Assembly: GCF_024345395.1 (NCBI RefSeq)
Contig: NZ_JAGQBA010000003.1
Coordinates: 310,001 to 374,000 of the forward strand
Length of the DNA: 64,000 bases
Source: Cyanobium sp. Tous-M-B4
GTDB lineage: Bacteria > Cyanobacteriota > Cyanobacteriia > PCC-6307 > Cyanobiaceae
Direction: 5' to 3'
Shown here: one piece after another, positions 28,348-43,128 of the stretch
Layout: every line of letters begins with the position of its first letter
How positions within the stretch are numbered: the stretch's first letter is position 1
Notes under the pieces: model-generated
Told to the model about the DNA's origin: nothing
The model's database searches: none
The model's input: only the letters and a program-made list of their open reading frames with translations
Made by a program: the position numbers and the translations under genes

Positions 28348-28372
28348 GGCAGCACTCGCAGCCCCGAAGTGC

Positions 28373-29206
28373 CTAGAGCCCGGGGCTGCTCTGCATGATG
28401 CCGCCGTCAGCAAAAATAGTTGTGGCCGTGATGTAGCTAGCGGCATCGCTGGCCAGGAAGCCCACCACCCTGGCAATCTCCTCGGGTTGGGCCATGCGGC
28501 CCAGGGGAATGGCGGCGTTGAGCTTGGCCAGCAACTCCGGGTTGTTCATGGTGGAGTCGTTGATCGGTGTAGCCACGGCGCCTGGGCCCACATTCACCAT
28601 CGTGATGCCATGGGAGGCCAGCTCCAGTCCAGCGGTGCGGGTGAGCATGCGCACCCCTCCCTTGGCGCAGCAGTAGGGAGTGTTCTCAGGCATCGGCCAG
28701 TCCTCATGCACCGAGGAGATGTTGATGATCCGGCCACCGCCACCCTGGGCGATCATCTGTTTAGCGGCATACTGACAGGCAAAGAATACACCCCGCAAAT
28801 TTACATCTAACACCTTGTCAAAATCATCGGGGGTGGTGTTGAGGATTGAGGTGCGAGTCTCAACACCTGCATTGTTCACCATCACATCGAGGCGACCATA
28901 TTTGTCCACAGCAGCCTGCACCAGACGCTGCAGATCATCGAGATTCGACACATCGGCATGAACACCGTAGCTGCTGCCGCCATAGCTACCAATCTCCCGC
29001 TCCAGCTCTTCGGTAGCCTCAGGGTGAGAGCGATAGTCGATCACCACCTTGGCTCCAAGTTCAGCCAAGTTTTCAACAATCGCCTTACCGATACCACTGT
29101 TACCACCAGTAACAATTGCCACCTTGCCCTGCAGAAAGCTGGACAGGGCTTTTCCGGCGAGGGGATTGGTGCTGGGCGCTGAAACGGATGGGGAACTTGT
29201 GGTCAT
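28373..29206 (-). CDS. SDR oxidoreductase, glucose 1-dehydrogenase-like
   Basis: A 277-residue classical short-chain dehydrogenase. Cofactor motif TGGNSGIGKA, NNAG motif MVNNAGVETR, catalytic Ser in NISSVHE, YCCAK giving the YxxxK pair, and a C-terminal ADGG are all present. The overall pattern is that of bacterial glucose 1-dehydrogenase-like SDRs, which oxidise aldoses to lactones with NAD(P); the substrate is not certain. The ATG at 29206 was chosen over an upstream frame without homology. It diverges from ridA across about 150 bases that should hold both promoters. Confidence 0.85.
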   Translation of the reverse strand: MTTSSPSVSAPSTNPLAGKALSSFLQGKVAIVTGGNSGIGKAIVENLAELGAKVVIDYRSHPEATEELEREIGSYGGSSYGVHADVSNLDDLQRLVQAAVDKYGRLDVMVNNAGVETRTSILNTTPDDFDKVLDVNLRGVFFACQYAAKQMIAQGGGGRIINISSVHEDWPMPENTPYCCAKGGVRMLTRTAGLELASHGITMVNVGPGAVATPINDSTMNNPELLAKLNAAIPLGRMAQPEEIARVVGFLASDAASYITATTIFADGGIMQSSPGL

Positions 29207-29359: not shown

Positions 29360-29761
29360 ATGCCCCAGCTGGTGAGACGGGCGATTCACAGCGATCGATT
29401 CCCCACCCCCGTGGCCTCCTACAGCCAGGGCTTCCAGGCTGGGAACATGTTGTTCATCACCGGTCAGCTGCCGGTGGATCCGACCACTAGCGAGAAGGTC
29501 GGAGATGGCGACATCACCCTGGAGGCCAGGCAGGTGATGGAAAACATGATGGCAGTGTTGGAGGAGGCGGGGTTCAGCGCCAAAGATGTGGTGAGCGCCG
29601 TGGTCTATCTCACCGACATCAACAGCCTCGATACCGTCGATGCCGTGTGGCAGGAATACTTCACTGATCCCCAGTCCTACCCGTCGCGCGCGGTGGTGGA
29701 AGTCTCCGCCTTGGTGCTTGGCATCCAGCTGGAGATCTCCGCTATCGCGATTAAAGATTGA
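29360..29761 (+). CDS. RidA-family protein (reactive imine deaminase)
   Basis: A 133-residue YjgF/YER057c/UK114 protein. Family members hydrolyse reactive enamine/imine intermediates. The motifs GNMLFITGQLPVDP and SRAVVEVSALVLG are present, the latter holding the Arg used for catalysis. The ATG at 29360 is taken as start; TTG at 29354 is also possible. It is the first gene of a plus-strand run reaching to 33394. Confidence 0.85.
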   Translation: MPQLVRRAIHSDRFPTPVASYSQGFQAGNMLFITGQLPVDPTTSEKVGDGDITLEARQVMENMMAVLEEAGFSAKDVVSAVVYLTDINSLDTVDAVWQEYFTDPQSYPSRAVVEVSALVLGIQLEISAIAIKD

Positions 29762-29785
29762 GCCACCACCGTGGGAGCAAAAGCC

Positions 29786-30241
29786 ATGACTGACACCAAT
29801 AGCCCCGCCGTCCTCCCTTATTGGCACCTCTGGACCGACGACGGGGGAGTTAGCCGCCAGACGCTCTGCAGCATGGCCCCCTGGACCCTGGGAGTGTTGG
29901 GTCCAAACGACTCCCCCCAGTGGAATCTGGACCTATTCAAGGATGGAAATTCCTTCCTTACCCAACTGCCGGTGGGTTGGACAGCGGACTGGCACGAAAA
30001 CCACATTCCCAAATGGATCTACGTGCTGCGCGGCAGCTGGTCGGTGGAGAGCATGGATGGCCAGAAACAGATCTTCGGCCCTGGTGAGTTTTCCTTTGGC
30101 GGCGATCAGCAGTGCCTAGCAACTGCTTCAGGAGCCAAGGGCCATCTCTCTGCCCAGGTAGGAGCAGAGCCCTGCCTGCAGCTGATCATCCAGCGCAACG
30201 ACGAACTCTGGCGCGGCGTGCGGCCGGGGTTCTTCTCGTGA
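29786..30241 (+). CDS. Cupin-domain protein
   Basis: A 151-residue single-domain cupin. The barrel motifs WTADWHENHIPKWIYVLRG and GPGEFSFGGDQQCLA are visible, with His residues that could bind a metal. No specific function is known. It starts 24 bases after ridA, and its stop overlaps the GTG of the lactonase gene. That coupling suggests it acts in the same pathway. Confidence 0.7.
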   Translation: MTDTNSPAVLPYWHLWTDDGGVSRQTLCSMAPWTLGVLGPNDSPQWNLDLFKDGNSFLTQLPVGWTADWHENHIPKWIYVLRGSWSVESMDGQKQIFGPGEFSFGGDQQCLATASGAKGHLSAQVGAEPCLQLIIQRNDELWRGVRPGFFS

Positions 30242-31155
30242 ACCAGCCCTCCGAGTGCACGGTCAGCTTCGACCGTCGCTTTGACGAGCTGGTGTTGTTC
30301 AATGCCGAGCTGGAATTACTGGCCGAGGGATTCCGCTGGGTGGAAGGTCCGGTGTGGTTTGGCGACCACAACTGCCTGCTGTTCAACGACATCCCCAACA
30401 ACCGCACGATGCGCTGGAGTCCCGAGCACGGGGTGAGCGTGTTCCGTGAACCCTCCGATTACGGCAACGGCCAAACCCGTGATCGCCAGGGCCGCCTGAT
30501 CACCTGCCACCACGCCAGTCGCTGCCTCACCCGCCTCGAGCCCGATGGCACGGTCACCACCCTGGCCACCGAGGCCCATGGCAAGCGTCTCAACGCCCCC
30601 AACGACGTTGTGGTGAAGAGCGACGGTTCGATCTGGTTCAGCGATCCCCTCTACGGGCTACTAAACGACTACGAGGGCGGCCGGCAGCAGTCTGAGCAAC
30701 CCGTGGCGCTCTACCGCCTCGACCCAAAAACCGGGGCGGTGGAGACAATGGCCAGCGACTTCGACGGTCCCAACGGCCTGGCCTTCTCGCCGGATGAGCG
30801 CAAGCTTTACGTGGCTGAATCGGGCGCCCCTGGTGTAGCGGACCCCCGCCAATACATCCGGGTGTTCGACGTGGCTGCCGACGGCCACAGCCTCTCAGGT
30901 GGGGAGATCTTCCACAAGGTCACTCCAGGCTGGGCCGACGGCTTCCGGGTCGACGAGCAGGGCAACCTCTGGTGCGGTGCCGCCGATGGCGTGCACTGCG
31001 TCGCCGCCGATGGCACCCTACTGGGCAAGGTGTTGGTGCCCCAGCGAGTTTCCAACCTCTGCTTCGGCGATCGGCACCACAGCCGCCTATTTCTCTGTGC
31101 CTCCAAGGCGATCTACGCCCTGTTCACCAACACCCGCGGCGCCCAGGCGCCCTGA
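30238..31155 (+). CDS. SMP-30/gluconolactonase-family hydrolase
   Basis: A 305-residue six-bladed propeller of the SMP-30/gluconolaconase/LRE family, which opens sugar lactones such as gluconolactone to the acid. The metal-site residues are present: Glu36 in VEGPVWF, Asn122 in APNDVVV, Asn179 in DGPNGLAFSPDE and Asp234 in WADGFRVDE. The start is GTG at 30238, overlapping the cupin stop by four bases. A frame open further upstream has no homology. It is well placed to act after a sugar dehydrogenase such as the nearby SDR or GMC proteins. Confidence 0.85.
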   Translation: MNQPSECTVSFDRRFDELVLFNAELELLAEGFRWVEGPVWFGDHNCLLFNDIPNNRTMRWSPEHGVSVFREPSDYGNGQTRDRQGRLITCHHASRCLTRLEPDGTVTTLATEAHGKRLNAPNDVVVKSDGSIWFSDPLYGLLNDYEGGRQQSEQPVALYRLDPKTGAVETMASDFDGPNGLAFSPDERKLYVAESGAPGVADPRQYIRVFDVAADGHSLSGGEIFHKVTPGWADGFRVDEQGNLWCGAADGVHCVAADGTLLGKVLVPQRVSNLCFGDRHHSRLFLCASKAIYALFTNTRGAQAP

Positions 31156-31169
31156 TTGCCGTCTCCACC

Positions 31170-31427
31170 ATGGCCCGCGACCAACTCGAAGCCTTTCTGA
31201 AAACCGTCAAGGGGGATCCAGGCCTGCTCGATCGCTTCAGCTCTTGCCCCAACCTCAACGCCATCGCTGAGCTGGGGGCGACCATGGGCTACGGCTTCAG
31301 CGGCGTGGAGCTGGTCCAGCACCAGGCCGAAGCCACCCTGAAACTCTCGGACGCCGACCTGGAGGCCGCCGCTGCCGGCGTTGAACTCCAAGGACACCTT
31401 TGGCTAGCGAAAATCATCTGGAGCTGA
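31170..31427 (+). CDS. Nif11-like leader domain protein
   Basis: An 85-residue protein of the Nif11 family (MARDQLEAFLKTVKGDPGLL, then MGYGFSGVELV). There is no Gly-Gly leader cleavage site and no lanthipeptide-type core, and no modifying enzyme is near. It sits inside an operon between the lactonase gene (14 bases before) and the GlcG-like gene, whose ATG overlaps its stop. That is an unexpected place for a natural-product leader and favours another role. Confidence 0.75.
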   Translation: MARDQLEAFLKTVKGDPGLLDRFSSCPNLNAIAELGATMGYGFSGVELVQHQAEATLKLSDADLEAAAAGVELQGHLWLAKIIWS

Positions 31428-31846
31428 TGCGCCACCAACCCCACCTAGAGCTTGCCGACTGCCGCTCGATTGCGGCGGCCAGCCACCTAGCGGCCGACCA
31501 GCACCAGGCGCGCGTGTCGATCGCCGTCGTCGACGCTGGCGGCCACCTGCTGTTGCTCGAGCGCCGCGATGGATCCAGCCCAGCCAGCGCCGAGGCTGCC
31601 ATCGCCAAGGCCCGCATGGCGGCCCTCAACGGCAAGCCCACCGCGGCCCTGGAGGCCAGCATCAACGGAGAGCGGCCGGCGCTGCTGCAACTGGCAGGGC
31701 TATTCGGACAACCAGCGGCCGCCATGGCCGGTGGCCTGCCGCTGCTGCAGGAGGACAGCTGCCTGGGGGCGATCGGCGTGTCTGGCATGACACCCGAGAT
31801 CGACAGCAGCATCGCCGCAGCTGGTGTCAAGGGCCTGGGCTCCTAA
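31427..31846 (+). CDS. GlcG/HbpS-family protein (DUF336)
   Basis: A 139-residue protein of the GlcG/HbpS family, with VSIAVVDAGGHLLLLERRDG and the C-terminal GGLPLL...GAIGVSG pattern. Members bind heme or small ligands, and their role in sugar or glycolate operons is unclear. The ATG at 31427 overlaps the Nif11 stop as TGATG; a TTG at 31400 would start inside the Nif11 gene. Confidence 0.8.
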   Translation: MRHQPHLELADCRSIAAASHLAADQHQARVSIAVVDAGGHLLLLERRDGSSPASAEAAIAKARMAALNGKPTAALEASINGERPALLQLAGLFGQPAAAMAGGLPLLQEDSCLGAIGVSGMTPEIDSSIAAAGVKGLGS

Positions 31847-31868
31847 CGATCGACAGCTCCTGCGCCCC

Positions 31869-32852
31869 ATGGCTCACCAAGCTCCCCAAATCAGCAGCAT
31901 CGGCTTCACCACAGCCAACGCTGAAACGACTGCCGATTTCTTCGTAACCACTCTGGGCTTCAGGCGGGGCGAAAGCCTGCTGGTGGAAGCCGGCCCCTAC
32001 GCCCAATTGGTGGGCCTGCCCGGCTCCCGGCTGAAGCTGGTGCGACTGCACCTAGGCGACGAAACCCTGGAGCTCACCGAGGTGCTGAGCCTGGGCGAGG
32101 GCCTGCGGCCTGGGCGTCCGATCCCGGCCGATTCCCGCAGCTGCGACCTCTGGTTTCAACACATCTGCATCGTGGTGAACGATCTGAACGCCGCCAGCGC
32201 TCCGGCGCGCCAGGCGATTGCTAACGGCTCCCTTGTGGGGGTGTCCACCGCCCCCCAGACCCTGCCGGCATGGAACAGCGCCGCCGCCGGCATCCAGGCC
32301 TTTAAGTTCCGCGATCCGGAGGGCCACAACCTGGAGCTGCTGCAGTTTCCCCCCGATAAGGGAGAGGCCCGCTGGCATGCAGCCGCGCCGGCCAGTGCCC
32401 CCTTCCTGGGGATCGACCACAGCGCCATCTCCGTGGCCGATACCACGCCCAGCTGCCGCTTTTACGACGGGCTGCTGGGGTTGAAGCTGGGGGGCGATGG
32501 GGTCAACAGCGGTCCTACCCAGGATGGGCTCGATGGCCTCCAAGACACCCGGGTGCGCATCACCGGCCACCGCTGCCCTACAGGCGCCGGCGTGGAATGC
32601 CTCAACTACCAGCCCCCCAACAGCGGCAGAGCAAGGCCCGCGGATCAGGGGGCCCAGGATCTGGCCCACTGGCAAATCCGGCTGCGGGTTGCCGATCTGG
32701 ATCGCATCGCCACAGCCGCGCAGACCTACGGCGGCCAACCGCTCCATGGCGGCGTGATCGAGCTGGGTGTCCAGGCGCCTCTAGTGGGCAGTGAGCGGGC
32801 GCTGCAACTGGCCGACCCCGATGGCTACCAACTGCAACTGGTGCAGGATTAA
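31869..32852 (+). CDS. Double VOC (glyoxalase/dioxygenase-fold) protein
   Basis: A 327-residue protein with two vicinal-oxygen-chelate domains: the first over about 5-165 (ISSIGFTTANAETTADFFV ... DPEGHNLELLQF) and the second over about 180-325 (LGIDHSAISVADT ... DPDGYQLQLVQD). Such pairs form one metal site, as in glyoxalases and ring-cleaving dioxygenases. The substrate is unknown. It follows the GlcG-like gene after 22 bases. Confidence 0.75.
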   Translation: MAHQAPQISSIGFTTANAETTADFFVTTLGFRRGESLLVEAGPYAQLVGLPGSRLKLVRLHLGDETLELTEVLSLGEGLRPGRPIPADSRSCDLWFQHICIVVNDLNAASAPARQAIANGSLVGVSTAPQTLPAWNSAAAGIQAFKFRDPEGHNLELLQFPPDKGEARWHAAAPASAPFLGIDHSAISVADTTPSCRFYDGLLGLKLGGDGVNSGPTQDGLDGLQDTRVRITGHRCPTGAGVECLNYQPPNSGRARPADQGAQDLAHWQIRLRVADLDRIATAAQTYGGQPLHGGVIELGVQAPLVGSERALQLADPDGYQLQLVQD

Positions 32853-32896
32853 ACAGATCCGGGTACCTTGAGCGCACCAAATACAGCCCAGACCAG

Positions 32897-33394
32897 ATGG
32901 ACATCACCGTGGTGGAGCTGCTCGTGCCGGCGGCACCCTCCACCCTGGCCCAGGCATCCCTCCTGGTGATGCGGGTGTTCCTGGGGATCTGCTTCATCCG
33001 CCACGGCTGGCCCAAGCTGCGCAATCTCAAAACCTGGGCCACGGCGATGCAAACGCCCGAATGGCTCTGCTTTCTGTCGGCCTTCTCGATGTGGGGCGCC
33101 GGTATCGCTCTGATCCCGGGGCTGCTCACCCCCCTGGCGGCCCTGGCGATCCTGGTGTCGATGGCCTACGCGGTGGTTGTGGAGCTGAAGGCGGGCTTTC
33201 CCTTCATCGGCCCCGATCCCTACCAGATTCCGCCCGGTGATTACGCCGGCCCGATGGGCGTGGGGGACCCCCCCAGCTGGGAGAAGGCCGCCATGTATGT
33301 GGTGATGTGTGCGGTGCTGGCCAGCTGCGGAGGCGGCCTGTTCTCCCTCGACAACCTGCTGATCGCCGATCTACTCAAAACGCTGCTCAGTTGA
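32897..33394 (+). CDS. DoxX-family membrane protein
   Basis: A 165-residue protein with four membrane helices and the DoxX pattern (LVMRVFLGICFIRHGWPKLR, then ALIPGLLTPLAALAILVSM). DoxX proteins have been linked to quinone-coupled oxidation steps; DoxD/DoxA of Acidianus form a thiosulfate:quinone oxidoreductase. It is the last gene of the plus-strand run and converges with the GMC gene across eight bases. Confidence 0.8.
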   Translation: MDITVVELLVPAAPSTLAQASLLVMRVFLGICFIRHGWPKLRNLKTWATAMQTPEWLCFLSAFSMWGAGIALIPGLLTPLAALAILVSMAYAVVVELKAGFPFIGPDPYQIPPGDYAGPMGVGDPPSWEKAAMYVVMCAVLASCGGGLFSLDNLLIADLLKTLLS

Positions 33395-33402
33395 GCCTGG
33401 GT

Positions 33403-35043
33403 TCACTTACCCAGACGCTCGCGCAGATGATCGCCAACCCGCAGGGCATTGGCGATTGCCGTAAGGGAAGGATTCACCGCGCCGATAGTCGGCATGAAGC
33501 TGGTATCGACTACGTAAAGGTTGTCGAGGTCGTGGGCCTTGCAGTTGAGGTCGAGCACCGAGGTGGCCGGATCGTCGCCGAAGCGACAGGTGCCGGCCTG
33601 GTGCGCCACGGCGGCAATACCCATCGCGTTCTTGACATAAATCTGGCGCTCCACCAAATGCTTCTTGAGATAGAGCTGGTCCAGCATCCCGGTGAGCCGG
33701 CCGTAGAGCCGCTGGGCGGCGGTTGGGTTGTTGGGCGTGTAGTCCAGATGAATCTGGCCCTCGCCATCGATGGTCACCCGGTTGTTGGGGTCGGGCAGAT
33801 CTTCTGAAGAGATCCAGAAATCAATCGCGTGCTCAGCGATTTTGTCCATAGACCAACCGGGCATCAAGAAGGTTTCGAGCGGCGCATAGCCCTTCATGAT
33901 CGTGCCGTTGGTCTTACCCGTCATCTGGATGTTGCCCATCGGATAATCAAAATCGGCATCCCCCAGATACCAATCGTTGATCGAAAGCGTCTTCTGGAAC
34001 ACGGTGGTGTTGGGCTCGTGGGCCAGGGCCACCATCGCCTTGCTGTTGTGGAACATGTAGTTGCGGCCCACCTGATCGGAGCTGTTGGCCAGCCCACGCG
34101 GGTGCTTGTCATTGGCAGACATCAACAGCAACCTGGCGCTGTTTGCAGCCCCACAGCTCACCACCACCACATCACCGCGCACGGTCATGGGCTCACCATC
34201 GCGCTCCAACTTCACCGCTTGCACAGTCCGCCCGGAAGCATCCGTAAGCAACTGCAGAACGTGGGCTCTAGTCAGCAGTGACACATTCGGAGCAGCCAGG
34301 GCCGGCCGCATGCCGAGCACGTCCGCATCGGATTTGGCATGCACCAGACAAGGAAAGCCATCGCAGCAATTGCACCTGCGGCAACGGCTAAAGGCCATGT
34401 TGGCCTCATCCAGCATCACCCCGGTAGGGGCATGGAAGGGATGCAATCCGGCCAATCGCAAATCATCTACTAGCTTCTGAATTCGCGGCTCATGGGCCAC
34501 CGGTGGATGGGGATAGGGGCCACTGCAAGGCGGCTCGGTAGGGTCTTCCCCTCGCTGACCGTGCACATGAAATAGCTCTTCTGCCCTCTGGTAGTAGGGC
34601 TCGAAATCGCTGTAGCGCAGGGGCCAGGCTGGCGAGATGCCATCAAAGTGCTGCAGCTGCTCAAAATCCTGCTGGCGCAGGCGAAAGTGAGCTGCTCCAT
34701 ACATCTTCGTTGCCCCACCAACGAAGTAGTGGCTACCAGGCTGAAAAGGTTTGCCGTGCTTGTCGTGCCAGATGTCTTTGGAGATGTAACGCCCCTTCTG
34801 GAACACTTCCGCGGCATCCCAGTTCTGGGGTTCCTGAGGCAGCCAGTCGCCTCTCTCCAGCACCAGAATGTTCAAGCCACTGGAACCCAGGTGACGCGCC
34901 AGGGTGCCACCACCGGCGCCACTACCGATAATCACCACATCGAAGTGAGCCCCATCTGCCACATTTAGCTGGGCAGCAGCGGGCATGGGCGAAATTGCCA
35001 GGGAAGGACCAGGAAGCTCGGTGCGATTAGAAGGATGGGCCAT
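33403..35043 (-). CDS. GMC oxidoreductase (catalytic residues present)
   Basis: A 546-residue FAD-dependent glucose-methanol-choline family enzyme. The FAD motif VVIIGSGAGGGTLARHLGSS is at about 36-55. The active-site pair is present: His481 in AHQAGTCRFG and Asn524 in GAVNPSLTAIANAL. A Cys cluster CRRCNCCDGFPC is at 221-232. There is no signal peptide, so it is probably cytosolic or at the inner membrane face. Such enzymes oxidise alcohols or sugars and pass electrons to a quinone or O2. It is the last gene of the eight-gene oxidase operon, 48 bases after the glycosidase gene. Confidence 0.88.
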   Translation of the reverse strand: MAHPSNRTELPGPSLAISPMPAAAQLNVADGAHFDVVIIGSGAGGGTLARHLGSSGLNILVLERGDWLPQEPQNWDAAEVFQKGRYISKDIWHDKHGKPFQPGSHYFVGGATKMYGAAHFRLRQQDFEQLQHFDGISPAWPLRYSDFEPYYQRAEELFHVHGQRGEDPTEPPCSGPYPHPPVAHEPRIQKLVDDLRLAGLHPFHAPTGVMLDEANMAFSRCRRCNCCDGFPCLVHAKSDADVLGMRPALAAPNVSLLTRAHVLQLLTDASGRTVQAVKLERDGEPMTVRGDVVVVSCGAANSARLLLMSANDKHPRGLANSSDQVGRNYMFHNSKAMVALAHEPNTTVFQKTLSINDWYLGDADFDYPMGNIQMTGKTNGTIMKGYAPLETFLMPGWSMDKIAEHAIDFWISSEDLPDPNNRVTIDGEGQIHLDYTPNNPTAAQRLYGRLTGMLDQLYLKKHLVERQIYVKNAMGIAAVAHQAGTCRFGDDPATSVLDLNCKAHDLDNLYVVDTSFMPTIGAVNPSLTAIANALRVGDHLRERLGK

Positions 35044-35091: not shown

Positions 35092-37779
35092 TTAACCAGA
35101 GGGATAACGATTCAGTTGGTTGATCATTTTGGCAACCATGGCACTCCAGCCGGTCTGGTGCGATGCGCCAACACCTCGGCCATTATCGCCATGAAAATAT
35201 TCGTTGAACAGGAGCAAATCGCGCCAGTGGGGGTCGCTCTGGAAAAGCTCTACATCACCATTGAAGGCACGGCGTCCAGATCCATCCCGCCTAAAGATCC
35301 CAACTAGCCGCTTCTCAAGCTGCAGGGACACCTCCCAGAGATTTAACCAGTTGCCCGAGCGGGAGGGAAACTCGACCTTGAAGCTATCGCCGTAGTAATG
35401 GGCAAACTTCTGCAGCGACTCAATTAGCAAGAAATTAATCGGCATCCACACCGGGCCCCGCCAGTTGGAGTTACCCCCGAACATCGCCACCGGGCTATCG
35501 GCGGGGCTGTAGGCCAGGGTCTGACTGTCAGCACCCTCAGTGAAGGTATAAGGATGATCGCCATAGACCTTAGAGAGAGAACGAATGCCATAAGGCGAGA
35601 GAAACTCCTCTTCGTCGAACAGCCGCTCACAGATCCGACGCAACCGATCTTCAGGCACCAGAGTATACAGAATACGATCATTATGCCACTGGCCAAGGTG
35701 ATGCTCTAGCCAGGTAGATGTGGTGCGCTCGTGCACAAACCAAGCCATACTATTGAGCACATCAAGCACTGGGAGGCGCTCGACTGTTTCACGATCAAAA
35801 CTGGCCACCGCTAGCAGGGGAACTAGGCCAGAAAGGGATCGAGTGCGCAGGAAATCGGTAGTGCCATCAGGCCGCTTGATCACGTCGTAATAGAAGCCGT
35901 CGTCATCGTCCCAATTAAGGAATCCCCGATCTGATGGTGCATTCAAGGTGAGGGCAAGCTGGGTAAAATCATAAACAAAGCGCTCACAGGTATCGGCATA
36001 CTCTGGCTCCTCACAGCTCAGTTCCACTGAAATGTTCAGCAGGTTGAGGCTCAGCGATGCCATCCAGGCCGTGCCATCACACTGCTCGATGCGGCTGCCA
36101 TCTTCGAGAGGAAAGCGGCGATCAAATACCGCAATATTGTCTAGACCAAGGAAACCACCCTCAAACACATTGTCGCCGGAGCGATCGTTGCGGTTAGCCC
36201 ACCAGCCGTATTCGAGTAGAAGTTTGCGCAGGGCAGACCTTAGGAAAGGCTGATCTGCCTTGCCGCTGTATTTGTGATCGATCTGATAGATGCGCATGGC
36301 AGCCCAGGCACCGATCGGCGGATTGGGATCAGATAGAGCCCATTCGTAGGCAGGGGTCTGGGCACTAGGGGCAGTGAAGTGGGGGCTGCGCAGCAACATG
36401 GCCTGCTGCTTGGCCATCTCCGGATCCACGATGGCAAACGCAACCGCATGGAACATCAAGTCCCACTGGCAAAAATAGGGGTACTCCCAGGCATCCGGCA
36501 TCGAGATGATGTTGTGGGCGTGCAGCCGCTGCCACTGGGCCGTCTCGGTATGCCAGCGGTTTGCTGGTGGTGCTGGCTGGGTAGGGTCCCCCTCAAGCCA
36601 GCGCAACACACTCCAGCCGTAATACTTCTTGCACCAAAGCAAACCGGCCAAAGCCGAGGTGTGGATCAGGCGATCCTCCCCATTGATCCCGGGCAGGACA
36701 GCCTCAAAGAAGCGATGGCACTCCTGTTCTCGAGCGCTAAAGAGCGCATCAAATGAGTCGCCAAATTCAGGCTCCTGCGAGAGCAAAGTATCAGCCTGCG
36801 GCCTCTGCCGCAGGCGAAGCTCAACGCACCACTCCTCATCCGGGGCGAGGGTGCGCTGCACCAGCCGTGCTGCCTTAGTGCCGGTATGGGCAGGATTGAT
36901 AGCGCCTATCTCCCCGTCTATCAGATAACGGTGAAATCCATCCTTCTGAAATTGAGTGGAATTAGGCTGGCCGTAAAGATGCTGGTGGTTGGTTTCATTA
37001 TCGGTAAACAACCACTCGCCCTGCTCGCGGCAGAGCAGCTCATAGACACCGAGGTTGGCCAAGTCGGAGGTGACAACACGATCATCCTCAAGAGTCATCG
37101 GTTGCCGATACTCATCGGGATAGCCCCAACCCCAGGTATTGCGCATCCACAGAGTGGGTAATAGGGCAAGCGGTGCTGGATCCGGCCCACGGTTGGTGAC
37201 CCGAATGCGGATCAGCAGATCAGTAGCTGCAGCCTTGGCGTATTCAACAACAACATCGAAGTAGCGGCTGTCATTAAAGATGCCCGTATCGACCAGCTCG
37301 TATTCGGGCTCGCTGCGGCTGCGCCGCCCGTTCTCATCCACCAGGTGCTGATATGGAAATTCAGCCTGCGGATACTTGTAGAGCCCCCGCATGAAGCTAT
37401 GGGTGGGGGTGTTGGCGAGGTGGAAGTAGTAATCCTTGAGATCTTCACCGTGGTTGCCTTCAGGATTACCCAGGCCGAATGGCCGCTCCTTGAGGACCGG
37501 ATCCACACCATTCCACATCGCCAGGGAGAAGCAGAGCCGGCACTCTTCGTCGCAGATCCCCAATAAACCGTCTTCGCCCCAGCGATAGACGCGGGACCTG
37601 GCCTGATCGTGAGGAAAGGAGCGCCAGGCATCGCCATCGCCGGAATAATCCTCGCGGACGGTGCCCCATTGACGATCGGGGAGGTAGCTGCCCCAGAGGC
37701 TCCAGGGCTGCATACCCTTATCGCGCTCGCTGATCCGCTCGACTTCTGGGTCGCTGGTCAAAGCGGGAGTTGTGGTCAT
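35092..37779 (-). CDS. GH63/MGH1-type glycoside hydrolase
   Basis: An 895-residue (alpha/alpha)6-barrel hydrolase of the type annotated mannosyl-oligosaccharide glucosidase or MGH1. Bacterial and plant relatives cleave glucosylglycerate, mannosylglycerate or other short alpha-glucosides. Visible motifs are YFCQWDLMFHAVAFAIVD, the long LGLDNIAVFD region and GGNSNWRGPVWMPINFLL. No signal peptide is seen. It overlaps the upstream GMC gene by four bases, so the oxidoreductase and the hydrolase are co-translated. It is less GC-rich than genes outside the operon. The substrate is not determined; compatible-solute glucosides are a reasonable guess for a cyanobacterium. Confidence 0.82.
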   Translation of the reverse strand: MTTTPALTSDPEVERISERDKGMQPWSLWGSYLPDRQWGTVREDYSGDGDAWRSFPHDQARSRVYRWGEDGLLGICDEECRLCFSLAMWNGVDPVLKERPFGLGNPEGNHGEDLKDYYFHLANTPTHSFMRGLYKYPQAEFPYQHLVDENGRRSRSEPEYELVDTGIFNDSRYFDVVVEYAKAAATDLLIRIRVTNRGPDPAPLALLPTLWMRNTWGWGYPDEYRQPMTLEDDRVVTSDLANLGVYELLCREQGEWLFTDNETNHQHLYGQPNSTQFQKDGFHRYLIDGEIGAINPAHTGTKAARLVQRTLAPDEEWCVELRLRQRPQADTLLSQEPEFGDSFDALFSAREQECHRFFEAVLPGINGEDRLIHTSALAGLLWCKKYYGWSVLRWLEGDPTQPAPPANRWHTETAQWQRLHAHNIISMPDAWEYPYFCQWDLMFHAVAFAIVDPEMAKQQAMLLRSPHFTAPSAQTPAYEWALSDPNPPIGAWAAMRIYQIDHKYSGKADQPFLRSALRKLLLEYGWWANRNDRSGDNVFEGGFLGLDNIAVFDRRFPLEDGSRIEQCDGTAWMASLSLNLLNISVELSCEEPEYADTCERFVYDFTQLALTLNAPSDRGFLNWDDDDGFYYDVIKRPDGTTDFLRTRSLSGLVPLLAVASFDRETVERLPVLDVLNSMAWFVHERTTSTWLEHHLGQWHNDRILYTLVPEDRLRRICERLFDEEEFLSPYGIRSLSKVYGDHPYTFTEGADSQTLAYSPADSPVAMFGGNSNWRGPVWMPINFLLIESLQKFAHYYGDSFKVEFPSRSGNWLNLWEVSLQLEKRLVGIFRRDGSGRRAFNGDVELFQSDPHWRDLLLFNEYFHGDNGRGVGASHQTGWSAMVAKMINQLNRYPSG

Positions 37780-39293
37780 CGCAGTGCTGCCCCCAAACCA
37801 TCGGCAATGCGCAGGGCATTGGCGATCACGGTGAGACCAAAGCCCATGGCCGGGCAGGCAGGGAAAGTACTGGCATCAACGATGGTGAGATTGGCCACCT
37901 CATGGCTACGGCCATCGAGATCCACCACCGACGTGGCCGGATTGACTCCCATGCGGCAGGTGCCGCAGCTGTAGCCCATGGCCGATAGGGGCGCCTCACC
38001 GCGGGGATGGGTGGGGGCTTCCCTCACCACATGGCAATCCGGATCAGCCTCCACCGCCTTAAGGGTGTCGATCCAGCGATACACGAGGCGATCATGGGCC
38101 TCGCGGTTGTTGGCCTGATAGGTGACCTGAATGCGATCACCCAGCAGGCTGATGCGGTTGTGGGGGTCGGGCAGCACAGGACTCATCGCCCACCAGCTGA
38201 TCGAACGGGAGGCCAGCTGCTCAAGGCCGAAGTTGGGCAGCAGCTTGGTCACCAGGGACAGCACCGGCGGCGACTCGGCAAACAGGGCATCCTGCAAAAC
38301 ACCGCCACCGTTCTGGATCGAACCCAGGGGGAAGGAGACATTCTTGTCGCCCCAGAGGTAGTCGTTAATGCCGTAGCTACGCCCATATCGGCCACTGTTG
38401 GCCTCAGTGGCCAACTGCAGAATCGAAGTGAGCTGGAGCTTCATCAGGTTGCGGCCCACCTGGTCGGAGCCGTTTGCTAAGCCACGCGGATGGCGGTCGG
38501 TCGCTGAACGCAGCAGGATCGCGGCGCTGTTGATGGCGCCTGCCGCTAGCACCACCTGATGACCAAAAAACAGCCAGCTCTGGCCATCCAGCCGCGCTTC
38601 CACACCCCGAACCTCCGTTCCGCTGGGGTTGACGTGCAGACGTTGCACCTCAGCTCCGGTGCGCACCACCACCGTGGCGGATGCCCGGGCCGGGTCCACC
38701 CCAAACAACTCCGCATCACCACTGGGATCGGCGCTGGACTGGGACCAGCTCAGCGGCAGGGAATAGGGATTCAGCCCCTGGCGAACCAAGGCCAGCCGCA
38801 ACTCCTCAAAGAACGGCTCCACGGGCTTGGGGGCCATGGCGTAGTCGGCGCCCGCTCGCGGTTCGGTGGGATCCACGCCCCGCTGACCATGCACCCGATA
38901 TAGGGCCTCAGCTTGGTCGTACCAGGGTTCGAAATCTCCGTAGCTAAGGCCCCAGGCTGGAGCCTGCCCCCCCTGTAAGTGCAGGCCAGCGAACTCCTGC
39001 TCCCTCAGCCGCTCGAGCACCCCACCCCAGATCTTGGTGTTGCCGCCTAGGGCGTAGATCATCTGAGGAGAAAAGGGATCCCCGTCGGTGCCAAACCATT
39101 GCTCCTTGGGGTGGTAGCGATCCTTGCGGAACAAATCCACATCGGCGACGTTCTGATCAGCAAGGGGCATCTGTTCCCCCCGCTCCAGCACCAGCACTGC
39201 CAATCCTGATGAGGCAAGCGAATTGGCGAGGGTGCCGCCGGCAGCCCCACTGCCAATGACAATTACGTCGTAATGGTTGTCGTCGATGATCAT
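37776..39293 (-). CDS. GMC-type oxidoreductase lacking the catalytic pair
   Basis: A 505-residue FAD protein of the GMC family with an intact dinucleotide motif (VIVIGSGAAGGTLANSLASS). Where its paralogue at 33403-35043 has His481 and Asn524, it has Tyr441 (MGYSCGTCRMG) and Gly484 (PAMGFGLTVIANAL), with identical spacing of 43 residues. It also lacks the Cys cluster. It may use another chemistry, be an electron-transfer subunit, or be inactive. It starts ten bases after ctaE and overlaps the glycosidase gene by four. Confidence 0.85.
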   Translation of the reverse strand: MIIDDNHYDVIVIGSGAAGGTLANSLASSGLAVLVLERGEQMPLADQNVADVDLFRKDRYHPKEQWFGTDGDPFSPQMIYALGGNTKIWGGVLERLREQEFAGLHLQGGQAPAWGLSYGDFEPWYDQAEALYRVHGQRGVDPTEPRAGADYAMAPKPVEPFFEELRLALVRQGLNPYSLPLSWSQSSADPSGDAELFGVDPARASATVVVRTGAEVQRLHVNPSGTEVRGVEARLDGQSWLFFGHQVVLAAGAINSAAILLRSATDRHPRGLANGSDQVGRNLMKLQLTSILQLATEANSGRYGRSYGINDYLWGDKNVSFPLGSIQNGGGVLQDALFAESPPVLSLVTKLLPNFGLEQLASRSISWWAMSPVLPDPHNRISLLGDRIQVTYQANNREAHDRLVYRWIDTLKAVEADPDCHVVREAPTHPRGEAPLSAMGYSCGTCRMGVNPATSVVDLDGRSHEVANLTIVDASTFPACPAMGFGLTVIANALRIADGLGAALR

Positions 39294-39303
39294 GGATGGT
39301 TCC

Positions 39304-39882
39304 TCAGCTGCGCTGCCAGACGTAAAGGAGAACGAAGAGGATGATCCAAATCACATCCACAAAATGCCAGAACAGGGAGGTGGCCTGAACGCCCTGCTCT
39401 CCACCCGCATAGTTCTGGGGGATGAAAGATTTCACCAGCATCAATCCCATCAAAAACACCCCCGTGGCCACATGCAAGCCGTGGAAGCCGGTAAGTAGAT
39501 AAAAGGTGCCGCCGAATACGCCACTGGTGAAGCCAAACTGCAGACCACCCCACTCAACGGCTTGGCCGTAGAGGAAATAGGCGCCAAGGGCCATGGTGAG
39601 TAACCAGAAGGCCCGAAAGCCCACCAGATTCCCCTTGCTCATGCAGCGCTCTGCCAGCCAGATCGTGCCCGAACTAGAAATCAATACCACCGTGTTGAGC
39701 AGGGGCGTGCGCCACTCGAGGCCTTCTACACCGGGGGGCAGCCAATTGAGCGCAGCGGTTTTCAGTAGTGCAAAACCACTAAAGAATGCCAAAAAGATGA
39801 CACTCTCAGAACAGAGAAAGATGATGAAGCCAGTGAGGTTGTGCTTCGGGTGCTCAGTGTTCAAATGAGGTGTAGCAGTCAT
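39304..39882 (-). CDS. ctaE: Cytochrome c oxidase-type subunit III
   Basis: A 192-residue, five-helix subunit III of a heme-copper oxidase. Family motifs FLCSESVIFLAFFSGF, LLTGFHGLHVATGVFLM and FWHFVDVIWIILFVLLY are present. Its ATG overlaps the ctaD stop as ATGA. Subunit III stabilises the catalytic subunit and is not itself redox-active. Confidence 0.94.
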   Translation of the reverse strand: MTATPHLNTEHPKHNLTGFIIFLCSESVIFLAFFSGFALLKTAALNWLPPGVEGLEWRTPLLNTVVLISSSGTIWLAERCMSKGNLVGFRAFWLLTMALGAYFLYGQAVEWGGLQFGFTSGVFGGTFYLLTGFHGLHVATGVFLMGLMLVKSFIPQNYAGGEQGVQATSLFWHFVDVIWIILFVLLYVWQRS

Positions 39883-41555
39883 GCCCTGGCCTCCTCAAGG
39901 GTGAGCTGATTTTCAATCTCTGCCTGGTGCTCAACCAGTGGCTCTCCAGTGCCGTAACCATAGGGGCGTGAAATCACGGTCGGCACGTGCTCACCAAAGT
40001 TGTCTTCAGGTGGCGGGGATGGCAACAACCACTCAAGACCAATGGCATTCCAGGGGTTATGGGGGGCTTTCGGGCCCCGCACCCAGGCACTCACCATGTT
40101 GAGGAGGAAGGGAATAATCGACACTCCCAGCAGGAAGGCACCCAGGCTGGCCAGCACATTCCAGAAGGCAAATTCCGGGTCGTAGCTAGAAACCCGCCGG
40201 GGCATACCCATCAAACCGAGGGGGTGCATGGGCAGAAAATTGAGGTTGGCACCGATGAAGGTGAGCAGGAAATGGAGCTTGCCAAGGCCCTCGTAGGGCA
40301 TGCGGCCAATAAATTTGGGAAACCAGTGATAGATAGCTGCAAAGATTCCCATCACCGCTGCTCCATAGATCACGTAGTGGAAGTGGCCTACCACGAAATA
40401 GGTGTTCGACACGTGAATATCGACCGGCACCGTGGCAAGCATGATCCCGGTGATGCCGGCAAATACAAAGTTGAACAGACCACCCAGGCAAAAAAGCATC
40501 GGGGTGGTGAGTCGCAGTTTGCCGCGCCAAATGGTGCCCAGCCAGGCAAACACCTTCACCCCCGTGGGCACAGCAATCAGCATGGTGGAAAACATAAAGA
40601 AGTTGCGCATCCACTGCGCCACCCCACTGGGAAACATGTGGTGCACCCACACAACTAAACCCAGTGCCACGATGATGAAGGAGGCCAGGCAGACGTAGAC
40701 ATAGCCAAACAGTGGCTTGCGTGAATAGACAGGAAACAGCTCGGAGAAGATGCCAAACACCGGCAGAATGATCACATACACGGCCGGGTGAGAATAAAAC
40801 CAGAAAAAGTGCTGATAAAGCACTGGGTCGCCACCTCCCTCTGGCTGATAAAAGCTGGTGCCAAAGCTGAGGTCCATCAGCAACATCACCGCCCCACCAG
40901 TAAGGGCCGGCAGGCCGATCAACTGCAGACTTTGGGCTGCAAGAGCCGTCCAGCAATACACGGGCATCCTGAAAAAGCCCATGCCAGGAGCGCGCATCCG
41001 CAGAATCGTGGTCACGAAATTGATCGCTCCCATGATCGAGGACACCCCCGAAAGGGCCACGGCTGTGATCCACAGGCCTTGGCCATTAATAAAGTGGCCC
41101 AGCGGGTTCTGGGTGCTAACCGGTGGATAGGACCACCAGCCGGAATAGGCCGGCCCACCAGGAACGAAAAAGCTGCCGATCAACAGGGCGCCGAAAATAG
41201 GCACCAGCCAGAAGGCCACCGCATTTAGCCGCGGAAAGGCCATATCTGGAGCGCCGATCATCGTGGGGATCAGCAGGTTGTTGAGGCCATTCAGCACCGG
41301 AAAGATGAACAGGAACAGCATGATTGTTCCGTGCATCGTGTAGATGCCGTTGTACACCGTGCGATCCACCAGATCAGCCGGGGGTGTAATCAGCTCTCCT
41401 CGAATTATCATGGCCAGCAGGCCACCGATCAGAAAGAAGAAAAAGGCCGTAACGATGTACTGAATGCCAATCACCTTGGCATCTGTATTGAAGCCGAAGT
41501 AACGGCTCCAGGAGGTGTTTTCGGGAGGACTGGGCGGGAAGGTAGCGGAGGTCAT
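39879..41555 (-). CDS. ctaD: Heme-copper oxidase subunit I (ARTO-type operon)
   Basis: A 558-residue catalytic subunit with about 12 helices. All redox ligands are present: low-spin heme His75 and His393, heme-copper site His391, CuB ligands His256, His305 and His306, and the cross-linking Tyr260 in SHPAVYVIILP. The subunit should therefore reduce O2. A conserved NAPD-like D-channel entrance is around Asp104. It starts five bases after ctaC. The partner subunit II shows that the enzyme belongs with alternative respiratory terminal oxidases (ctaCII/DII/EII) rather than the standard cytochrome c oxidase. Confidence 0.95.
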   Translation of the reverse strand: MTSATFPPSPPENTSWSRYFGFNTDAKVIGIQYIVTAFFFFLIGGLLAMIIRGELITPPADLVDRTVYNGIYTMHGTIMLFLFIFPVLNGLNNLLIPTMIGAPDMAFPRLNAVAFWLVPIFGALLIGSFFVPGGPAYSGWWSYPPVSTQNPLGHFINGQGLWITAVALSGVSSIMGAINFVTTILRMRAPGMGFFRMPVYCWTALAAQSLQLIGLPALTGGAVMLLMDLSFGTSFYQPEGGGDPVLYQHFFWFYSHPAVYVIILPVFGIFSELFPVYSRKPLFGYVYVCLASFIIVALGLVVWVHHMFPSGVAQWMRNFFMFSTMLIAVPTGVKVFAWLGTIWRGKLRLTTPMLFCLGGLFNFVFAGITGIMLATVPVDIHVSNTYFVVGHFHYVIYGAAVMGIFAAIYHWFPKFIGRMPYEGLGKLHFLLTFIGANLNFLPMHPLGLMGMPRRVSSYDPEFAFWNVLASLGAFLLGVSIIPFLLNMVSAWVRGPKAPHNPWNAIGLEWLLPSPPPEDNFGEHVPTVISRPYGYGTGEPLVEHQAEIENQLTLEEARA

Positions 41556-41560
41556 CGGGC

Positions 41561-42508
41561 TCAGGCGTCGTGCGGCAGGGAGTTGGATCCGGGAACGTTC
41601 ACCTGGGGCGGTGGGGCTGGTGGCACGGTGGCCCAGCCTGGGTTTTTGAGCTGTTTGCGCTCGCCGTATTCGATTACTGCATCACTTAAACCAGGCTGCA
41701 ACGGCTGGCTAGCGGCGTTCTTCAGCCAAGCCTGGTAAGCCTCGGGGCTCTCGACCACCACATCGGCCTGGTTGGCGGCAAACCAGGTGCCACTGAACTG
41801 GGAATCGCGCAGGCGGTAGCGCCCCTGCCGCGTTGGCGTGAGATTGAAGTTGATCGCCCGGCCAGGGATTACGTCCTGCTTGAGGCGGAAAGCTGGAATG
41901 TAAAAGCCATGAATTACGTCGTCTGACACCAAACGGAAGCTGACGGGCTGATCAACCGGCAGATGCAGCTCGGTGGTGGAAACATTGACGCTTGGATAGC
42001 TAAATTCCCAAGACCACTGGCGGGCAATCACCTCCACCTGCTCGGCCGGCAAGCGATCGGCGGCGTAGCCCCCCTGGTCTTCCACCGGATTAGCCAAATG
42101 GATGTGCTCCATCGGCCCAAGAACTCCGAGTTTGGTGTTGACGCGCATGGCGTAAACCGCGATAGCCATCACCAGCAGTAAGGGAATGACCGTCCAGATC
42201 ACCTCGAGCCGGGTATTTCCCTCAATCGGCTCCGCATCGCTCTCGTCGTATTTCTCGGCGCGGTGCTTAATCAGCACCCAAGCCATCACCGACACCACCC
42301 CCCCAAACACAAACGTACCGATGCCCGTTTCAAAGCTGAACAGCCCATCCACCAGTGGTGCTGCGGTCGAGGCCTGCACAGGCAACCAGCGATATGCCTG
42401 CTGGGCCATCCACCAGCTCAAGGCCACCAACAGCCCAATCCAAGCCAGCAAGCCGGCCAAGCCGGCGCTGCTGATTGGTGGGCGGGAGCGGTCAGAGGAG
42501 TTACTCAC
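41561..42508 (-). CDS. ctaC: Heme-copper oxidase subunit II without CuA ligands
   Basis: A 315-residue subunit II with three N-terminal hydrophobic segments (about 15-34, 62-81, 102-121) and a C-terminal cupredoxin domain. His200 (VIHGFYIPAFRLKQDVIPGR) is kept, but the loop that normally reads CxExCxxxHxxM is RDSQFSGTWFAAN. Asp235, Ser239, Phe243 and Asn246 replace Cys, Cys, His and Met, so no CuA centre can form. This is the known hallmark of cyanobacterial ARTO, whose donor may be quinol. It overlaps the DUF2231 gene before it by four bases. Confidence 0.92.
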   Translation of the reverse strand: MSNSSDRSRPPISSAGLAGLLAWIGLLVALSWWMAQQAYRWLPVQASTAAPLVDGLFSFETGIGTFVFGGVVSVMAWVLIKHRAEKYDESDAEPIEGNTRLEVIWTVIPLLLVMAIAVYAMRVNTKLGVLGPMEHIHLANPVEDQGGYAADRLPAEQVEVIARQWSWEFSYPSVNVSTTELHLPVDQPVSFRLVSDDVIHGFYIPAFRLKQDVIPGRAINFNLTPTRQGRYRLRDSQFSGTWFAANQADVVVESPEAYQAWLKNAASQPLQPGLSDAVIEYGERKQLKNPGWATVPPAPPPQVNVPGSNSLPHDA

Positions 42509-43128
42509 GGCAGGGCCTCGGTGAGATCAGCGCCAGCGGCAAGAAGTTGGTCGGCGGTGATGTGAACACCGAATTCAGCTGCAAGCTCGGCGCCGAGGGT
42601 GCCGTGCAGCCCGATCACAAGAAATAACCCCAGGCCCACCAGCAGGTAGAGCCACTGCACCTGACGCCCCATGTCACGGCGCCAGACAAAGCGCTGATAG
42701 CCGCGCCACACCGTCATGGCGACGATCACCAGCAGGATCACAACCCCACCGACGCCATGCACAAGCATCGTCTCCATGCTCTGCAGTCCGATGCTGCTGG
42801 TGACTCCGGGCAGGGGCACTGCCAGCAGCATTTCGTAGAAGCCGGCAGCCACCGTGAAGAAGGTAACGATGGAGCAGGCCAGCAGGTTGTACCAACCCAC
42901 ATCGTGGAAGCCCCCGCGGGTTACGGGCAGGGCTAGAAAGCGAAACACCCGCTTCTCCACCGGATATAGGGCGCCGGCAATATCGAAGGCGATGGCAATA
43001 ACGAACAGACCGATCGTGAAATGCACCAGGTTTGGATGAATTGGCAGGGCATAGGGAAGCCCGTTGGGCCCAAGATCAGCTGCCAACTGCTCAATCGGTG
43101 AGCCCGCCGGAATGAAGGCAGCCATCAC
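42505..43128 (-). CDS. DUF2231 membrane protein (second copy)
   Basis: A 207-residue four-to-five-helix membrane protein of the DUF2231 family. Histidines lie in or at the ends of helices: His31 and His36 (IHPNLVHFTIG), His124 (LVHGVGG), His175 (GLHGTLGAEL) and His189. His31, 36, 124 and 189 have counterparts in the neighbouring paralogue. Such paired His could bind b-type heme or face a quinol. The gene overlaps ctaC and the first DUF2231 gene by four bases each, so it is surely made with the oxidase. Function unknown. Confidence 0.8.
   Translation of the reverse strand: MMAAFIPAGSPIEQLAADLGPNGLPYALPIHPNLVHFTIGLFVIAIAFDIAGALYPVEKRVFRFLALPVTRGGFHDVGWYNLLACSIVTFFTVAAGFYEMLLAVPLPGVTSSIGLQSMETMLVHGVGGVVILLVIVAMTVWRGYQRFVWRRDMGRQVQWLYLLVGLGLFLVIGLHGTLGAELAAEFGVHITADQLLAAGADLTEALP

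Follow-up and report, generated by a model that had tools for sequence, protein, structure and literature searches.

The stretch of DNA analysed here (hereafter the window) comprises 64,000 nucleotides of Cyanobium sp. Tous-M-B4, contig NZ_JAGQBA010000003.1, positions 310,001 to 374,000. It contains a head-to-tail run of seven genes in one direction, encoding a RidA-family protein, a cupin, an SMP-30 lactonase (SGL), a Nif11-like protein, an HbpS/GlcG-type protein, a double-VOC protein and a DoxX-type membrane protein. Spacings from Rid to DoxX are 24, -4, 14, -1, 22 and 44 bases, and after a further 8 bases the run meets GMC2, the last gene of an opposing operon in the order DUF2231, DUF2231, COX2, COX1, COX3, GMC1, GH63, GMC2 (gaps of -4 to 48 bases). 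On the other side, a gene for a short-chain dehydrogenase/reductase (SDR) diverges from the run, with 153 bases between. The original prediction had described the seven-gene run, with overlaps or gaps of at most 44 bases and its end eight bases from a GMC gene, together with a diverging glucose 1-dehydrogenase-like SDR; Pfam/NCBIfam profiles and coordinates bear out the first point, and the PDB relatives of the SDR (see below) the second. Gene families in the window were assigned with the same profiles, which gave no specific name for the VOC, cupin or GH63 protein. Coordinates are those of the window:

28373..29206, minus strand: SDR, glucose 1-dehydrogenase-like (PF13561, 216 bits)
29360..29761, plus strand: RidA-family protein (PF01042, 112.8 bits; TIGR00004 also above cut-off)
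29786..30241, plus strand: cupin, core member (Cupin_2, 21.2 bits, under the 27.2 cut-off; the AlphaFold model has a cupin fold)
30238..31155, plus strand: SMP-30/gluconolactonase-type lactonase (SGL), core member (PF08450, 154.8 bits against a cut-off of 26.3)
31170..31427, plus strand: Nif11-like protein (TIGR03798, 54.9 bits against a cut-off of 32.3)
31427..31846, plus strand: HbpS/GlcG-type protein (PF03928, 101.2 bits)
31869..32852, plus strand: double-VOC protein, core member (confident model with repeated VOC-type modules)
32897..33394, plus strand: DoxX-superfamily membrane protein with four transmembrane-like segments (PF07681, 48.7 bits; hydropathy)
33403..35043, minus strand: GMC oxidoreductase GMC2, core member (PF05199/PF00732)
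35092..37779, minus strand: GH63-type (MGH1-like) glycoside hydrolase, 895 amino acids (PF22422, PF03200)
37776..39293, minus strand: GMC1, a second GMC oxidoreductase, tied to the oxidase and not to the lactonase unit
39304..42508, minus strand: COX3, COX1 and COX2, probably an oxidase of the alternative respiratory terminal oxidase (ARTO) type (PF00510, PF00115, PF02790/PF00116)
42505..43640, minus strand: two DUF2231 membrane proteins at the head of the oxidase operon (PF09990)

Comparison with other genomes reveals a conserved core made up of GMC2, the cupin, the lactonase and the VOC protein, plus a DoxX-type membrane protein. Within the Cyanobiaceae, 161 genomes were searched with six proteins (SGL, GMC2, GH63, VOC, DoxX and COX1). 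GMC2 was counted at E ≤ 1e-200, with the addition of a contig-edge fragment in G034, giving 58 genomes and not all 95 that had any GMC match; GH63 at ≥58% identity (60 of the 64 genomes with a match); DoxX with a weak match in G153 left out (55 of 56); and ARTO-type COX1 at E ≤ 1e-250 (95 genomes, the remainder being a second COX1, about 55% identical). VOC was present in 56 genomes and the lactonase in 42, the latter count including four proteins 35 to 41% identical near GMC2 and four about 50% identical and unlinked. All 58 GMC2 genomes carried GH63 and the ARTO-type oxidase, 56 carried VOC and 55 DoxX; among the 103 others, VOC and DoxX were found in none, GH63 in two, and only the unlinked, about 50% identical lactonases in four. 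The lactonase accompanied GMC2 in 38 of the 58, in 34 of them as a clear orthologue (≥55% identical to that of the window). None of the 42 lactonase-bearing genomes was without the ARTO-type oxidase, and 38 of them had GMC2, while the oxidase itself occurred without GMC2 in 37 and without the lactonase in 53 of 95 genomes.

The genes are also physically linked. On the same contig and ≤18 kb from GMC2 were SGL in 36 of 38 genomes, VOC in 53 of 56, DoxX in 54 of 55, GH63 in 57 of 58 and COX1 in 52 of 58; the exceptions for SGL, VOC and DoxX (G102, G034 and G051) are fragmented assemblies with the genes on separate contigs, and the linkage of these three genes to GMC2 is more than chance. Most of the Cyanobiaceae loci that were read also have the SDR close to GMC2, at 68 to 95% identity. 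Within genera the set is patchy: GMC2 is present in 7 of the 11 genomes from the genus of the window, and the remaining four are also without GH63, VOC, DoxX and ARTO-type COX1. No lactonase, cupin or Rid was found in nine genomes of genus g4; SDR, VOC and DoxX persist there beyond the oxidase operon, <20 kb from GMC2. One g4 locus (L221) has an EamA-like gene (recognised by eye) and an isoamylase/GlgX-type gene among SDR, VOC and DoxX, and the isoamylase-like family recurs in 10 further loci out of 20 that were picked for extra room between known genes (two of the 10 were checked with Pfam).

Several loci of this series show peculiarities in the lactonase. A second lactonase stretch, about 35 to 38% identical, lies between SDR and cupin in L138 (1287), L141 (1061) and L162 (6758). 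In G079 (contig 23, L072) and G121 (contig 2, L135) GMC2 is present, VOC and DoxX gave no match, and a 41% identical lactonase is nearby, which may represent a gene replacement. The lactonases of L021, L022 and L023 (G151, G131 and G157) each have one in-frame stop, which may reflect decay, sequencing error or a frame problem. Finally, L141 is a contig filed under a Bifidobacterium breve metagenome-assembled genome, that carries this same cyanobacterial gene set with a lactonase 84% identical to that of the window, and it was probably mis-binned.

The core recurs outside the cyanobacteria. A lactonase scan limited to a single genome for each species retained 80 of 97 relatives, 31 of them cyanobacterial by gene content and 49 not. 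At the 49 non-cyanobacterial loci the lactonase was 59 to 70% identical to that of the window and was accompanied by GMC2 in 45, VOC in 46, a DoxX-type protein in 46 and cupin in 45, with all four in 42. Identities to the window proteins were 51 to 56% for GMC2 (18 proteobacterial loci aligned), 39 to 46% for the cupin (16 proteobacterial loci aligned) and 33 to 43% for VOC (aligned proteobacterial sequences). GMC2, cupin, SGL and VOC stay together in Proteobacteria despite varied gene orders and strands. RidA, Nif11 and HbpS/GlcG members were seen only in cyanobacterial units, with no tblastn match (Rid at E ≤ 1e-5) in the 49 loci. Viral contigs scanned with the lactonase gave no match.

Five annotated plasmid regions were read, of 25 listed among 505 plasmid records with a lactonase match. 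The Rhizobium/Sinorhizobium majority of the plasmid matches, mostly <60% identical, may well be unlinked to GMC2. The two gene runs, which converge in the window, diverge on the Roseomonas, Mesorhizobium and Paraburkholderia plasmids. In Roseomonas, cox4-cox3-cox1-cox2-GMC stands against a diverging DoxX-cupin-SGL-VOC; in Mesorhizobium, the same four genes diverge from a glucoamylase-like gene, GH39, GMC and SDR; in Paraburkholderia, COX1-COX2-SDR-GH15-SDR (the GH15 with a trehalase-like N terminus) is matched by a diverging GMC-DoxX-cupin-SGL-VOC. A Caballeronia plasmid carries GMC-DoxX-cupin-SGL-VOC and, further on, another SMP-30 gene as well as cox3 and a gene for a cytochrome c. In Shinella the lactonase belongs to an unrelated sugar-acid operon. 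There (L220, 8001-9316), a "heme-binding protein" gene follows the lactonase relative, near gluconate/idonate genes, an arrangement that recalls the SGL-HbpS neighbourhood of the window by gene name and position.

A second sample, anchored on GMC2 and independent of the lactonase, consisted of 149 genomes from the family of Methylobacterium oryzihabitans. A GMC2 orthologue (E ≤ 1e-150) was found in 22 of them, at 23 loci, several on contigs <10 kb. At least one of cupin, VOC, DoxX and SGL was present at 21 of the 23 loci, and three or more at 12; individually, VOC was found at 17, cupin at 15, DoxX at 14, an SDR-type match at 12 and a GH63 relative at 6. The two loci without cupin, VOC, DoxX and SGL do have GH63 and SDR. 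GH63 proteins at five of the loci are 45 to 47% identical to that of the window. COX1 lay ≤12 kb from GMC2 in 3 of 16 sample genomes, against 1.3% expected from the number of copies per genome (p about 0.001); this control covered 16 of the sample's 22 GMC2 genomes, omitting six that mostly had short contigs, and included two hand-picked genomes in addition. Five COX1 proteins were at least 70% identical to that of Roseomonas, and four of these were near GMC2, two of them in the hand-picked genomes.

A GMC2-like gene (E ≤ 1e-130) was also present in 35 genomes outside the Cyanobiaceae among 339 cyanobacterial genomes searched. Twenty such loci from other cyanobacterial families had GH63 in 9 and an SDR-type match in 14, and in two of them (L266 and L273) COX, SGL and DoxX were near GMC2. 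Glycoside hydrolases, SDRs and terminal oxidases join the unit in both phyla. Loci L263 and L275, from two other cyanobacterial families, each have a pair of neighbouring GMC2-like genes, with a VOC match between them in L263.

ARTO is widespread in cyanobacteria and, to our knowledge, its physiological electron source is unsettled. The presence of CuA in an oxidase can be judged from the ligand pattern of COX2. By sequence and alignment, COX2 of the window is without CuA ligands, as is the linked COX2 of Roseomonas, these being the two linked COX2 proteins examined. The window COX1-2-3 is therefore probably an ARTO-type oxidase with quinol as putative donor. The 95 genomes with any GMC match are exactly the 95 with ARTO-type COX1; in four of the twenty loci from other cyanobacterial families (L276-L278 and L280), GMC1 and the oxidase genes share an operon, and the DUF2231 neighbours of the oxidase are the same in five. 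GMC1 may be an enzyme partner dedicated to ARTO. The lactonase run and GMC2, together with GH63, form a unit attached to the more widespread oxidase and GMC1 operon.

Several members point to sugar oxidation. SMP-30 enzymes bind their metal through Glu, Asn, Asn and Asp. The corresponding motifs are present in the window protein (EGPVW at 36, NxPND at 119, GPNGL at 177 and WADGF at 232), and all four recur in looser form in 158 of the 169 sequences extracted (duplicates counted). With the gluconolactonases 3e5z and 3dr2 as its PDB relatives, the window SGL is probably an SMP-30/gluconolactonase-type lactonase, predicted to open aldonolactones; its nearest named relative is from Synechococcus sp. 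8F6 (92% identical). GMC2 best matches FAD glucose and fructose dehydrogenases (6a2u at E 9.3e-39, followed by fructose dehydrogenase), while all other GMC entries in PDB, the weaker relatives including pyranose oxidases, match at E ≥ 1.5e-14. For the SDR, the only PDB sequences at E ≤ 1e-60 are 1gco, 1rwb, 1gee and 1g6k, all glucose (1-)dehydrogenases; it falls below the cut-off of the NCBIfam glucose-1-dehydrogenase model PRK08936 (252.4 bits against 420) and meets that of the broader PRK07231 "glucose 1-dehydrogenase" subfamily (230.4 against 215). GH63 had no phmmer match in PDB at 0.001, and a profile of 14 GH63 sequences gave weak matches, the best to a GH63 glucosidase (1.9e-08), with GgH-type chains at E 0.33. 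Judged by hydropathy, GMC2, SGL and GH63 have no secretion-type N terminus, and their reactions are therefore probably cytoplasmic. Membership of GMC2 in a FAD glucose dehydrogenase (FAD-GDH) complex was considered and rejected, since the iron-sulphur cluster motif of these enzymes is not kept and their other subunits are missing. A second cysteine set (C221, C224 and C232) is kept in most of 23 aligned GMC2 proteins; L175 and L197 are without C221 and C232.

In the VOC protein, H98, E156, H184 and E243 are invariant in 21 of 21 aligned sequences. VOC-type extradiol dioxygenases use a ligand set of two His and one Glu. The AlphaFold model (pLDDT 94.8) is matched best by Foldseek to GLOD4 and maize glyoxalase I. 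The invariant residues and the best matches suggest a glyoxalase-I-like site, of a metal isomerase or lyase more than of a ring-cleaving dioxygenase, but the hydroquinone dioxygenase 4huz is also among the Foldseek matches. The cupin model (pLDDT 93.0) matches cupin structures; no function was drawn from the Foldseek/VIA comparison, which returned general cupin matches only (best Z 8.9, to SznF residues 359-464). A defence system was likewise considered: PADLOC, run on five proteins, matched RidA only (PD-T4-2_B, a shared Rid-type domain), which we read as none.

Taken together, these data support a reading, to which we assign a probability of roughly 0.55, in which the lactonase run works as a single functional unit with GMC2, GH63 and the SDR, oxidising sugar inside the cell and feeding respiration. 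An internal glucoside or glucan would be cleaved by a glycoside hydrolase to yield an aldose, probably glucose. As a soluble, FAD-dependent member of the glucose/fructose dehydrogenase group, GMC2 would oxidise the aldose at C1 to the lactone, a step that the putatively NAD(P)-dependent, glucose-1-dehydrogenase-like SDR could carry out in parallel, and the SMP-30 lactonase would open the lactone to the aldonate. Electrons from GMC2 would enter the quinone pool, possibly helped by DoxX, and a CuA-less quinol-type oxidase, ARTO in cyanobacteria and a similar one in some Proteobacteria, would pass them to O2, while the targets of VOC and cupin may be the sugar itself, its lactone or some reactive by-product with a carbonyl group. 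The attached hydrolases vary (GH63, GH15, GH39, glucoamylase-like and isoamylase), and since most, not all, fit glucose release, glucose or a close aldose would be the simplest common substrate. Quinone is a probable acceptor because the two linked COX2 proteins, of the window and of Roseomonas, are without CuA, and because the window gene has no cytochrome c or gamma subunit beside it and the FAD-GDH motif is not kept; for the same last two reasons, the path by which GMC2 would reach quinone is assumed. The substrate, the C1 chemistry, quinone as acceptor, the roles of DoxX, VOC and cupin, and the physiological purpose are what we infer from these comparisons. The original prediction that the two operons may form one catabolic unit accordingly stands for GMC2 and the lactonase run, given the association of the lactonase with the oxidase and GMC2, its recurrence in Proteobacteria, and the flanking of a lactonase with ligand motifs by two proteins closest to sugar dehydrogenases. 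It does not stand for the oxidase operon as a whole: co-location in other genomes holds for the GMC2-cupin-SGL-VOC core, the oxidase is more widespread, and most oxidase genomes are without the lactonase, a pattern that the original prediction had named as refuting; among GMC2 genomes this pattern is not seen.

A number of observations weigh against this reading. The lactonase gave no match in 20 of the 58 GMC2 genomes of Cyanobiaceae, four of the 38 found (G079, G121, G012 and G023) are only 35 to 41% identical, and just 13 of the 23 GMC2-anchored loci have SGL. The GMC relatives also include enzymes acting on other positions. The CCx4C iron-sulphur motif of FAD-GDH is not conserved across GMC2, since the window protein has it, as do 63 of 118 extractions of the cyanobacterial set (duplicates and some GMC1 included), but 0 of 49 others, and FAD-GDH gamma and cytochrome c subunits were not found with Pfam among 20 proteins scanned around the unit. 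COX1 adjoins only 4 of the 49 lactonase-anchored non-cyanobacterial loci, the linked COX1 of G272 is only 36% identical to that of Roseomonas, and the Caballeronia unit has cox3 and a gene for a cytochrome c in its vicinity, so that a cytochrome c route is possible in Caballeronia and G272. The window DoxX is only 14 to 21% identical to those of the proteobacterial units, and is therefore a like-for-like membrane protein with no clear orthologue between phyla. Lastly, a TIGR01313 gluconokinase was not found in the genome (FGGY-type kinases were not searched for), so that a catabolic role, if this is taken to mean assimilation of carbon, is unproven, and the unit may be purely respiratory or protective.

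The ancestry of the unit was addressed with quick trees of the lactonase and GMC2 carrying SH-aLRT support only. The 32 Cyanobiaceae lactonase orthologues next to GMC2 cluster together (87) and connect to lactonases of alphaproteobacteria (96), within the diversity of Proteobacteria; the cluster includes neither the four distant lactonases near GMC2 nor the four that are unlinked. In the GMC2 tree, the Cyanobiaceae (100) and the Proteobacteria (99) are sister groups (support 80), nested within a wider range of cyanobacterial sequences. It is thus likely that the unit was transferred between phyla, in either direction. Of 70 non-cyanobacterial loci, which represent 68 distinct genes since two of the upstream regions duplicate others, 14 have a GGAAC-N15-18-CGTT motif 26 to 58 bases upstream of GMC2; for random 130-base stretches taken from these loci the figure is 0.2%. 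According to PMC7083833 and PMC3892343, GGAAC-N16-CGTT is the promoter of EcfG, the alphaproteobacterial general stress sigma factor. Several of the 14 loci are close relatives (Methylorubrum), and most Methylobacterium loci are without the motif.

This motif bears directly on purpose. The same chemistry, in overlap with the sugar-oxidation unit preferred here, could serve protection and not growth, as a stress electron sink or O2-lowering respiration that burns a stored glucoside. The EcfG-type motif, the fit of some linked hydrolases to storage or osmolyte glucosides and the TIGR01313 result all suit such a role, which we nonetheless consider less likely than not: the exact motif is absent from 56 of the 70 loci, the 14 are in part close relatives, the regulatory support comes from non-cyanobacterial loci with none for cyanobacteria, and neither "gluconolactonase" nor "GMC" was found by a term search of the main texts of three EcfG papers. 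At the other extreme, the two gene sets might be mere neighbours, co-inherited in a genomic island without a shared pathway, as the usual joint inheritance of the Cyanobiaceae stretch and the frequency of the oxidase operon without GMC2 (37 of 95) would allow. This was already disfavoured and seems to us highly improbable, given that GMC2, cupin, SGL and VOC stay together in Proteobacteria under other orders and strands, and that the g4 genomes read have SDR, VOC and DoxX across the oxidase operon yet still <20 kb from GMC2.

Two other explanations change the chemistry. GMC2 might oxidise a sugar or glycoside at C2 or C3 to keto-sugars or dicarbonyls, which VOC, cupin and RidA would rearrange or detoxify, with the lactonase acting on a later lactone. 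A VOC model that matches two-domain glyoxalase I and GLOD4, with two His and two Glu throughout, would be at home in such a pathway, as would the pyranose oxidases among the weaker relatives of GMC2 and the stricter tracking of GMC2 by VOC than by the lactonase (56 against 38 of 58); C1 oxidation is nevertheless favoured by the glucose/fructose dehydrogenases as closest solved relatives of GMC2, the flanking SDR closest to glucose 1-dehydrogenases and a gluconolactonase-type lactonase in the core, and we consider the C2/C3 route unlikely. Less probable still is that the unit handles quinones or aromatics in the manner of the Bacillus CatDE/MhqOP pairs of DoxX and VOC proteins, with VOC cleaving rings as a dioxygenase. 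In the window, VOC is followed directly by DoxX (44 bases), the two co-occur in 55 Cyanobiaceae genomes, and 4huz is among the Foldseek matches, but the hydrolases linked to the unit act on sugars, VOC keeps two His and two Glu invariant and not two His and one Glu, and DoxX differs between phyla.

Among known systems, the FAD-dependent glucose and fructose dehydrogenases are sugar dehydrogenases that feed the respiratory chain. The closest solved sequences to GMC2 (6a2u and 7w2j) belong to this group and to the same GMC family; GMC2 differs in having no cytochrome c or gamma neighbour (among the 20 proteins scanned), an unconserved CCx4C and no export signal by hydropathy, and in sitting in a cupin-lactonase-VOC unit. 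Glucose dehydrogenase followed by gluconolactonase is a known aldose oxidation route, with which the window shares dehydrogenase-type genes beside an SMP-30 lactonase with ligand motifs, and to which it adds cupin, double-VOC, DoxX, glycoside hydrolases and an adjacent oxidase. Bacillus CatDE/MhqNOP is likewise a DoxX and VOC protein pair, from which the window unit differs in having sugar-enzyme neighbours and in the invariant residues expected of the VOC. With ARTO (ctaC2-D2-E2) the window shares a COX1-3 operon and a COX2 without CuA, but its operon continues with GMC1, GH63 and GMC2; PMC10119275 reports the ARTO operon in 85% of Synechococcus reference genomes, and "GMC" and "lactonase" were not found by a term search of its main text. 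According to PMC6608630, mycobacterial GgH (GH63) releases glucose from an internal solute, glucosylglycerate; solved GgH chains have 448 amino acids, compared with 895 for the window GH63, and profile matches are weak.

The proposed chemistry is a new arrangement of known steps, and no description of the conserved cupin-VOC-GMC2-lactonase core was found among the matches listed in open-licence PMC literature. The gene set was not found without an ARTO-type oxidase in the 161 genomes and stands by other oxidases in Proteobacteria, which makes a sugar dehydrogenase a testable donor for ARTO. A role hypothesis is also gained for cupin, double-VOC, DoxX and long GH63 proteins, within a metabolic unit common to Cyanobacteria and Pseudomonadota. 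More speculatively, and as a tentative proposal, this could be a mobile cross-phylum module of hydrolase, aldose dehydrogenase, lactonase and dedicated quinol oxidase that runs as a short chain from a glucoside stored in the cell to O2, by-passing NAD(P)H, is switched on by stress and is shared with freshwater and marine picocyanobacteria, in which it would provide ARTO with an electron donor.

Beyond the SDR, the window has two overlapping genes, one of them for an Ion_trans_2 channel, and an NDH-2-like gene at 25528-26898, together spanning 25528-28380; these neighbours stay near the unit in many Cyanobiaceae loci.

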